From positions 1 to 24,014 of IMG/VR virus record IMGVR_UViG_3300042400_000089: 24,014 bases of DNA, one strand, 5' to 3'. A program made the position numbers and the translations under genes. The DNA comes from a virus. Every line of letters starts with the position of its first letter. Position 1 is the first letter of the stretch. Positions 8-11,834 of the stretch are shown here, piece after piece. The notes below the pieces were generated by a model that made no database searches, was not told the origin of the DNA, and worked only from the letters and a program-made list of their open reading frames with translations.

Positions 8-343
8 TTAGTTATGAATATATGGTTTATTAAATTCTCCGATCTTAATATTTACATAAAAGTCAGGCTGCGTTCCGTAGTCGCCTGTTTCTCTGTATGT
101 AACTCCTTCGCTTGCTATTGTATTAATAACATTTAATACATTTTTTTTAACTCCTTCAGGTTGTTCGTGAATGTACCAAGTATTTACTTGCTCGTAATTT
201 TCTTCAGTTAATTTTGCCGGTCCTGATAGAATCACAATACTAACTCCGTTGTAATGTCTTTTAGTTACTGAAAATTTGTAAGCAGGCAATGCGTTCTTTA
301 ATTCGCATCTAATTGTTTTTACTCTCTCGGTTGTTGTTTTCAT
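8..343 (-). CDS. Small phage protein with LPD29-like domain
   Basis: A complete 111-aa gene with an ATG start behind an A-rich leader (minus strand reads AACAATAT before ATG). The N-terminal half, residues about 9-40 (IRCELKNALPAYKFSV, then a SIVILSGPA-type strand), resembles the 'large polyvalent protein associated domain 29' pattern: a basic helix, a KFSV strand and a turn ending in GP. In other phages and conjugative elements that domain occurs alone or inside polyvalent proteins, with no settled function. It is the first gene after the promoter at 366-405 and is separated from terL by 104 nt, so it probably starts a new transcription unit that continues beyond the window's left edge. No membrane segment or signal peptide is seen. 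The domain name is from memory of the pattern and is moderately sure. Confidence 0.7.
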   Translation of the reverse strand: MKTTTERVKTIRCELKNALPAYKFSVTKRHYNGVSIVILSGPAKLTEENYEQVNTWYIHEQPEGVKKNVLNVINTIASEGVTYRETGDYGTQPDFYVNIKIGEFNKPYIHN

Positions 344-365: not shown

Positions 366-405
366 TACAAATATACACCTTTTACCCATATTTTATACAT
401 TTATA
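366..405 (-). promoter_or_regulatory. Bacteroidota-type promoter (copy B of a repeated block)
   Basis: On the minus strand TATATTTG (368-375) matches the Bacteroidota -7 consensus TAnnTTTG and lies about 25 nt upstream of the ATG at 343. No convincing -33 TTG is seen. The 40-bp block is the same as that upstream of position 11731, with 25 of the first 30 positions identical, which is unlikely by chance in unrelated spacer DNA. It is inferred to drive the gene at 8-343 and whatever follows. Confidence 0.55.
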
Positions 406-415
406 GGCACTATAT

Positions 416-447
416 GATAAGCGGTAAATATGGTGGATAAGCGGTAA
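416..447. repeat. Pair of 12-bp direct repeats GATAAGCGGTAA
   Basis: GATAAGCGGTAA occurs at 416-427 and again at 436-447, exactly 20 bp apart (about two helical turns). The second copy abuts the stop codon of terL. The pair sits upstream of promoter copy B, a position suited to an activator or repressor site. Function is inferred from position only. Confidence 0.6.
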
Positions 448-1961: not shown

Positions 1962-1997
1962 ATTCTCTTATTTCCTTCTTTGTTATTTTGAGCGGTA

Positions 1998-2035
1998 GGG
2001 TGGTATTGCACCCCTTCTTTAGTCTGGAAGACTAA
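1998..2035 (-). promoter_or_regulatory. Two adjacent hairpins upstream of terS
   Basis: In the 84-nt gap between the Mom-like gene and terS there are two perfect inverted repeats: TTAGTCT/AGACTAA (2019-2025 and 2029-2035, 3-nt loop) and GGGTG/CACCC (1998-2002 and 2009-2013, 6-nt loop). Neither is followed by a T-run on the minus strand, so this is not a typical terminator. Leader RNA structure or a packaging-site element are both possible. Confidence 0.4.
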
Positions 2036-2045
2036 CGCATTACTT

Positions 2046-2717
2046 TTATGCTTCTACCGCTTGTTGCCTTTCAGCCAAAGTTACTTTATTTCCCTTATAC
2101 ATCCCTGCGCCCATTTCATCTATTTTGCTAAATGGTAATATTGGGACTGTTATTTTGCAAGTTTTATCTATTAAATAAACGTATTTTAATTGTTTACCTT
2201 CAAATGGTTTCCACTTTCTAAATTCTGTACTTATCTTTAAATGGTGTGCCTGTATAACGTGAATTGCTTCCCCATTAACAGGGTTTATTCTTAAAGACAT
2301 ATTTTCAACGATACCAACTAAACTAAATCCACTTGCCCTATATATTGTGCCATCACCACATTGTGTTCCATCTGCAAAACTAATTATCCATTTTATTTGT
2401 GGTGCATTTTTCTTTATTAGTTTAATGCTAATTGCTATGCATCTGCTTTCACTATACTTTGGCAAATATTCATCAAATGCCATTCTATTAAGTTCAATAA
2501 ATTCATTCCATCCTGTGCCTTCTACTAAGTTAATCGTGCCTTTTTTATTAATACTTGGACCATAAGACATTACTCCGTGTAATTTTTCATCTAAAAAGCA
2601 ACCAAAATGCAATGTACTATTAGGCACTACCTTGCCTGAATAATGATTTAATTTAACAAACTCATTAGCCACTTTACTCGGTATTACTTTTACTAAGATT
2701 TCTTTTGCTCTGCCCAT
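2046..2717 (-). CDS. Mom-family DNA modification protein (GNAT-like)
   Basis: A 223-aa protein resembling the Mom family, GNAT-fold enzymes named after phage Mu Mom, which converts adenine to N6-methylcarbamoyl-adenine and so protects DNA from many restriction enzymes. Recognisable elements in order: NHYSG (24-28), a FGCF strand then GVMSYG (48-53), ELNRMAF (75-81), an S-rich helix SESRCIAISIKLIKK (89-103), ISFAD (112-116), and GDGTIYRASGF (121-131). The start overlaps the ParB-like gene by 25 nt, so the two are probably co-translated. The length agrees with the family. The exact chemistry and substrate are not shown by the sequence, and a different GNAT acyltransferase is the main alternative. 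Confidence 0.75.
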   Translation of the reverse strand: MGRAKEILVKVIPSKVANEFVKLNHYSGKVVPNSTLHFGCFLDEKLHGVMSYGPSINKKGTINLVEGTGWNEFIELNRMAFDEYLPKYSESRCIAISIKLIKKNAPQIKWIISFADGTQCGDGTIYRASGFSLVGIVENMSLRINPVNGEAIHVIQAHHLKISTEFRKWKPFEGKQLKYVYLIDKTCKITVPILPFSKIDEMGAGMYKGNKVTLAERQQAVEA

Positions 2718-9801: not shown

Positions 9802-10227
9802 TTATTCTTTTACAAATTTACTAAAATTTTCAATCTCTTTCTCTATTTCTTCAACTTTTTCTTTATACCATTCTTCGGTTTCTATTAGGTTTTCAGCCGT
9901 TTTTATGTTATAAATAACTGTTGTATGGTCGCCAACGCCTATCAATTTAGCTATTTCGTTAAGGGATAATTGAGTGTATTTCTTCAGTATGTAAGCCGCC
10001 GCCTTGCGTCCAAAAATTACGCTCTGGCTTCGGTTCTTAATCTGGATATTAGTATCAAATACATCCTCAACTAATTCAACTAATCTATGCGGCATAATGG
10101 TTGTAGAGATTGATCCTATTGCAAGCTCGTCTGTTATCAAATTATTTTTGACTAATTCTTTATGAAACATACGCAAACTTCGTAATTGATCCTTGTAACA
10201 TTGTATTAAATTGTTATTAAATTCCAT
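9802..10227 (-). CDS. Orphan DnaA domain IV-like DNA-binding protein
   Basis: A 141-aa protein that aligns by eye with only the C-terminal DNA-binding domain of DnaA: RSQSVIFGRKAAAYILKKYTQLSLNEIAKLIGVGDHTTVIYNIKTAENLI (66-115). It includes the DnaA signature DHTTV (100-104), which contacts the DnaA box in the host initiator. The AAA+ ATPase and the DnaB-binding domain are missing, so it cannot form an initiator filament by itself. It ends in a coiled, acidic helix (EKVEEIEKEIENF). It may recognise DnaA boxes or phage origin sites and act as a regulator. It lies directly upstream of the replisome organizer gene. Confidence 0.85.
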   Translation of the reverse strand: MEFNNNLIQCYKDQLRSLRMFHKELVKNNLITDELAIGSISTTIMPHRLVELVEDVFDTNIQIKNRSQSVIFGRKAAAYILKKYTQLSLNEIAKLIGVGDHTTVIYNIKTAENLIETEEWYKEKVEEIEKEIENFSKFVKE

Positions 10228-11706: not shown

Positions 11707-11730
11707 ATGCCGTTGGTTTTATTACGGCAT
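11707..11730 (-). promoter_or_regulatory. Leader hairpin or operator of the early operon
   Basis: ATGCCGT (11707-11713) and ACGGCAT (11724-11730) are perfect 7-bp inverted arms with a 10-nt spacer. They lie between the -7 box (11733-11740) and the start codon at 11699, overlapping the expected transcription start. It could be an operator for a dimeric repressor or a 5'-UTR stem. Confidence 0.5.
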
Positions 11731-11770
11731 TACAAATATACATCTTTTATTCATATTATGTACACTTTAT
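11731..11770 (-). promoter_or_regulatory. Bacteroidota-type promoter (copy A of a repeated block)
   Basis: Minus-strand TATATTTG at 11733-11740 fits the TAnnTTTG -7 box and lies about 35 nt before the start codon at 11699. It is just downstream of an intrinsic terminator, so a new transcript is needed here. The surrounding 40 bp match copy B (366-405) at 31 of 40 positions. No clear -33 TTG is visible, which leaves room for an activator or an alternative sigma factor. Confidence 0.6.
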
Positions 11771-11782
11771 TAATTATTTAGG

Positions 11783-11810
11783 CAAAAAAAAGCCACTTAT
11801 TATAAGCGGC
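11783..11810 (-). terminator. Intrinsic terminator after the exonuclease operon
   Basis: On the minus strand GCCGCTTA-TAA-TAAGTGGC forms an 8-bp stem with one G-T wobble and a 3-nt loop (11792-11810), followed directly by eight T (11784-11791). It stands 25 nt after the stop codon of the 84-aa gene and separates the late and lysis transcript from the early operon. Confidence 0.85.
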
Positions 11811-11834
11811 AATACCTTATATATATAAAATTAT

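Follow-up and report, generated by a model that had tools for sequence, protein, structure and literature searches.

Binding sites of LytTR-family regulators are often degenerate, and the broad consensus of the family provided the lead toward the reading proposed here for a promoter block that occurs twice in a viral genome from IMG/VR. LytTR direct repeats lie 11–13 bp apart and in most cases some 10 bp ahead of the -35 element, with a Treponema example reading ACCACTTAT-11-GCCACTTAT and with TGTA or TGTG at the -33 position of LytTR-type operons in Bacteroides (PMC6193735). The promoter-proximal repeats of AgrA are centred near -60 (PMC4227749), and AlgR is an activator of the Pseudomonas pilin operon fimU (PMC4064291). 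Where phages are concerned, Pseudomonas phages are described in a review as encoding LytTR proteins (PMC11945551), and cyanophage promoters carry pho boxes recognised by PhoBR, a two-component system of the host, at single genes and with gel-shift evidence (PMC10976474). As far as the accessible text of the literature searched extends, no description of LytTR operators in phage promoters was found. The second relevant system is the primary-sigma promoter of Bacteroidota, defined by TTTG at -33 and a -7 consensus of TAHHTTTG / TANNTTTG, with transcription starting 4–5 nt past the -7 element; in Flavobacterium johnsoniae the -33 element is generally weak and AT-rich patches are centred on -18 and -28 (PMC6847099).

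The stretch of DNA analysed here (the window) is a complete IMG/VR record of 24,014 bases, which looks like a fragment beside relatives of 32–36 kb. A sequence-only reading of the window had claimed that a 40-bp block is repeated with 31 of 40 positions matching and with one sequence present in both copies. Direct comparison confirms both points: copies A and B, each upstream of minus-strand genes, are identical at 31/40 positions and have TATATTTGTA in common, with 84% identity between 366-402 and 11731-11767. The proposed check against AT bias gave a divided answer. With copy B as a fixed query, none of 300 dinucleotide shuffles reached 31 (the best reached 28), a clear result, and an all-against-all search of 40-mers gave a weaker one, as 2 of 100 shuffles contain some pair scoring 31. 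We accept the repeat as real because its core pattern is conserved, the all-against-all match alone being weaker. The core promoter pattern was found in 52 IMG/VR stretches and, at up to five mismatches, in 54 distinct contexts, and the reversed pattern, used as a control, had no matches. Among 46 related records the core pattern is present in 12, with two copies in nine, one in three and more than two in none.

The window and 28 related genomes largely share their gene order, and the marker genes lie on a single strand in the order capsid, portal, tail-like protein, exonuclease, promoter A, ERF, DnaA_C, sigma-like protein, glycosyltransferases, terminase and promoter B; two genomes without an ERF match (G041 and G045) were left out of this layout comparison. 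Promoter A precedes the replication operon and promoter B follows the terminase, so that the gene order in the 29 genomes places A and B at the heads of two long gene runs. The claim that regulatory DNA is repeated at two operon starts is thus supported by position and by the relatives. GenBank holds no near-identical phage. The exonuclease matches Flavobacterium phages at 50%, and the portal is 24% identical to that of Nonlabens phage P12024S over half the portal length; on these two likenesses the host phylum is inferred only. The terminase has matches in many phages, all below 60%, and queries with the sigma-like and capsid proteins returned no isolate match. Phage P12024S (Inhavirus) resembles the window's phage in size and shares part of the gene order (portal, ERF, VRR-NUC, sigma-like, terminase). 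A tRNA gene (1991-2060, minus strand; Rfam RF00005, 41.3 bits) lies between the small-terminase-like gene of the window and the next gene. The features discussed are collected in Table 1.

Table 1. Features of the two promoter regions and of two candidate regulatory proteins, in window coordinates.
Feature	Position	Strand	Remark
Repeat copy B	366-405	-	promoter block
Promoter B first gene, 111 aa, LPD29-domain protein	8..343	-	
Promoter B -7 element TATATTTG	368..375	-	expected transcription start ~363, inferred from 4-5 nt spacing (PMC6847099)
Promoter B 20-bp AT-rich spacer	376..395	-	conserved in relatives
Promoter B TGTA at -33 position	396..399	-	sequence
Promoter B tandem, proximal half, LytTR-like, putative: TTACCGCTTATC	416..427	-	
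Promoter B tandem, distal half, LytTR-like, putative: TTACCGCTTATC	436..447	-	
Sigma-like protein, 163 aa	7295-7786	-	possible divergent sigma factor
141-aa phage protein, DnaA-type helix-turn-helix (DnaA_C)	9802-10227		
Promoter A first gene, 69 aa	11490..11699	-	without family match
Repeat copy A	11731-11770	-	promoter block
Promoter A -7 element TATATTTG	11733..11740	-	expected transcription start ~11728
Promoter A 20-bp AT-rich spacer	11741..11760	-	sequence
Promoter A TGTA at -33 position	11761..11764	-	sequence
Terminator-like hairpin and T-run of upstream operon	11784..11810	-	read from sequence
Promoter A lone half-site TTGCCGCTTATA	11801..11812	-	60 bp upstream of A -7

The two copies resemble Bacteroidota primary-sigma promoters in their -7 element, which reads TATATTTG at both A and B, in spacing and in AT-rich patches; in the spacer of copy B, TAAAA and AAAATA fall about where the host patches at -18 and -28 sit. 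They depart from these promoters at -33, where TGTA replaces TTTG in the window's lineage. The sequence-only reading had seen no clear -33 TTG in either copy, and both indeed read TGTA, 20 bp upstream of the -7 element. Outside the window's lineage (18 genomes) a host-like -33 is present in 17/18 A and 17/18 B copies, counts that lean toward TTTG because the procedure that chooses the -7 element gives score to a TTTG-like -33. TAnnTTTG alone shows no enrichment, so the -7 element by itself proves nothing. Taken as a whole, the repeated block is, to judge by its sequence, a host-type (Bacteroidota) promoter opening two large operons, and its weak -33 TGTA suggests that both promoters probably need activation. 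Two further features of the region can be recorded here. Within the core, TGTATA recurs with a periodicity of 11 bp, for which the host AT-rich patches may account in part. Directly before the ATG, the leader of operon A contains a small hairpin (11707-11730, minus strand; ATGCCGT ... ACGGCAT), whose third pair is C-G, T-G or T-A among 10 distinct lineage leaders and which is maintained through two-sided changes.

The clearest regulator site, a tandem repeat at 416-447, lies upstream of copy B and outside the coordinates of the earlier reading. When the A and B regions of the 29 genomes were searched for a repeated box, the tandem took the form TTACCGYTYATC-N8-TTACCGYTYATC, and at a scoring threshold of at least 20 of 24 it is present at B in 26/29 and at A in 19/29 genomes. 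Outside the window's lineage, every one of the 18 genomes has it at A and at B. In one genome (G005) a cut terminase misled the automatic assignment of B; the true B there has no tandem and is counted among those lacking it. In the window the tandem at B is perfect: no other 12-mer of the record recurs without mismatch at +20, and 0/200 shuffles contain such a repeat. At A a lone half-site sits where the distal box of a promoter of the 40-bp class would fall, and a terminator-like hairpin has its T-run where the proximal box would be. The window's lineage has the tandem in 20/38 distinct B contexts and in 0/18 A contexts, with the A half-site 60 bp from the -7 element in 6/6 (the first six of the 18 contexts). 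Given that 18 of the 38 B contexts and all 18 A contexts of the lineage are without the tandem, the shared core must work without it there. At up to three mismatches the tandem occurs in 52/53 phage records and its reversed pattern in none. Phage P12024S, unlike the window's phage, has no tandem operator at this stringency, and the tandem is missing from the isolate relatives checked. An additional tandem, carried by the other strand some 100 bp away from promoter A, is present in several genomes (G010, G015, G022, G023, G026 and others); it ends in TTACCGCTTGTG or TTACCGTTTGTG and may mark a divergent promoter.

The geometry of the tandem is strict. Among the matches listed, the period is 20 bp in 176/176 distinct instances, although 19–22 was allowed; the phage boxes used are a sample, and the tally of exact tandems in phages is at least that counted. 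Clustering the 176 instances at 80% identity gives, among the matches listed, 86 groups, 67 with a strict -7 element downstream and 19 with none. The distance from box to -7, measured to the most downstream -7 match, is 32–34 bp in 17 of these 67 groups, 40–42 bp in 14, 50–53 bp in 34 and 24 bp in two, so that 65 of 67 fall in three main classes, again among the matches listed. At 65% identity, 28/42 groups have a strict -7 element, every one of them in the three classes among the matches listed. A separate 24-bp class was discarded: it mostly reflects a match inside the -33 TATGTTTG, and the most-downstream rule leaves two cases. The three classes are one helical turn apart, with the operator upstream of the promoter and in phase with it, and none of 50,000 uniform random draws was equally phased at 10.5 bp. 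Such one-turn increments would be expected if a DNA-bound protein touches the polymerase. If transcription from promoter B starts at 363, the half-sites lie at about -58 and -78, the proximal one near -58. The elements, their conservation, their spacing and their phasing are direct observations on the sequences.

Compared with described LytTR operators, the tandem agrees in spacing, half-site sequence and position. It consists of direct 9-bp half-sites with 11 bp between them, within the spacing that defines LytTR repeats (PMC6193735), as do the operators of AlgR, AgrA and HdrR/BrsR and the LRS-like sites of Bacteroides, which likewise have a pair of direct 9-bp half-sites, separated by about 11 bp, ahead of their promoters. 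The half-site core CCGTTCATC is, in a comparison by eye, one letter from the AlgR core CCGTTCGTC (PMC4064291), and the window's own half-sites, which read CCGCTTATC, are three letters off it. Its location upstream of the promoter and in phase with it is comparable to that of the AgrA repeats near -60. The phage tandem differs from known LytTR operators in consisting of near-perfect copies, in occurring in phages without a detected LytTR gene and in being known here by sequence. LytTR identity, host origin of the regulator and activation rather than repression are what we infer.

A cellular counterpart came from genome_contigs, where the sole exact tandem (L356, 1546-1577) lies just upstream of a minor-pilin operon, a type of operon that AlgR activates; about 0.03 such matches are expected by chance, as estimated from the pattern and the database size. 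The metagenome-assembled genome (MAG) that carries it is gammaproteobacterial and has 12 LytTR matches, and the site is a candidate for an unusually perfect AlgR-type operator. Among 43 genomes of the MAG's family, two have boxes at up to three mismatches, one being the MAG itself and the other a weak match among pilin-like ORFs. The same search of genome_contigs did not find the exact tandem in Bacteroidota genomes.

Who reads the tandem is the question on which the alternatives divide. The LytTR domain (PF04397) was found in none of the 28 phage records and, at E-values up to 1, in none of 53. When profiles of 23 LytTR domains were compared with those of 66 phage protein families, the probability was at most 0.7%, with a control at 99.8%. 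A phage-encoded LytTR protein was rejected, as neither the domain search nor the profile comparison found one. Since the 53 phage records yielded no LytTR protein, a host regulator would be the simplest reader of these sites. Alternatively, a phage-encoded regulator outside the LytTR family might read the tandem, such as the 141-aa DnaA-type protein or an unrecognised small protein. The abundance of the exact tandem in phages and its near absence from cellular genomes, among the matches listed, speak for such a protein, as does the presence of DnaA_C in 27 of 40 records examined, 39 of which bear the tandem; DnaA_C was not found in the other 13, several of them fragments. Against it stand the fit of tandem sequence and spacing to LytTR sites and a 76-kb genome (G064, L353) that has the boxes and shares 0/44 family proteins. 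This unrelated phage has LytTR-like boxes at three promoters, near 15.3, 17.8 and 21.4 kb, and includes a four-box array with a 20-bp period followed by TTGACA-N17-TATCTT (read by eye). We regard a phage regulator of this kind as unlikely.

That A and B are simply strong promoters of the host type, alike through the host consensus and without a special regulator, is quite improbable. Their -7 elements and AT-rich patches are host features as published, and the tandem is missing in some members of the lineage; the identity between A and B nevertheless exceeds what the consensus would give, and a phased tandem is kept in most genomes. The sequence-only reading had proposed that a host sigma factor alone may be insufficient, pointing to the sigma-like protein of the phage. 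The first part holds to the extent that the -33 is weak and a shared activator likely; a need for the phage protein finds no support. The protein is conserved across the phage family, where it may represent a divergent sigma factor. No family match is significant; its structural model is poor (pLDDT 59) and has ECF sigma factors as its seven best Foldseek matches, none significant. In P12024S the gene that likewise follows VRR-NUC has a Sigma70_r2 match, but its product cannot be aligned with the window's protein. No result connects the sigma-like protein with promoters A and B, which have the host -7 element; its own operon lies downstream of promoter A, and no homologue was found in 11 of the 40 records examined, many of them fragments, with 39 of the 40 bearing the tandem. 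We consider it very improbable that this protein directs polymerase to A and B. Replication iterons or partition sites lying near promoters by chance would be helically spaced direct repeats close to genes with DnaA_C and ParB_N domains, as here, and this explanation can practically be dismissed, since the tandem is a pair or short array in fixed phase to the -7 element, usually at both operon starts.

The reading we favour, and hold to be reasonably probable, is that A and B carry a LytTR-like tandem in the relatives and that a host LytTR regulator recruits polymerase to both operons. Against it count the lack of an exact tandem among the Bacteroidota genomes of genome_contigs, although LytTR sites can be degenerate, the contexts of the window's lineage that are without the tandem, and its absence from the isolate relatives checked. 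On this reading a phage genome of about 32–36 kb, with its genes on one strand, would have A and B as its principal promoters: A would open the operon running from replication to terminase and B the one that follows the terminase, and both have a host primary-sigma -7 element and a weak -33 (TGTA). The activator site of the family would consist of two 9-bp half-sites, ACCGYTYAT, 11 bp apart and on the same DNA face as RNA polymerase, and a LytTR-domain regulator, probably the host's, would bind it and bring polymerase to A and B alike. The putative full operator is present at B in 20/38 contexts of the window's lineage, and A would have the distal half only.

Phages listening to host regulators have hitherto been described mostly for single genes or for captured quorum-sensing genes (PMC10976474, PMC11945551). 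The cyanophage pho boxes are likewise sites for a host response regulator in phage promoters; the putative site described here differs from them, as they are reported, in standing at both operon starts, in belonging to another regulator family and in being known by sequence. It is found at both operon starts in most of the phage family and recurs with the same geometry in unrelated phages. We suggest tentatively that a large group of uncultured Bacteroidota phages, together with some unrelated phages, may have a host LytTR regulator in control of their main gene programmes. If so, the sensory state of the host would license the expression of the whole phage genome, and a simple DNA motif would be at hand for pairing uncultured phages with host signalling systems.
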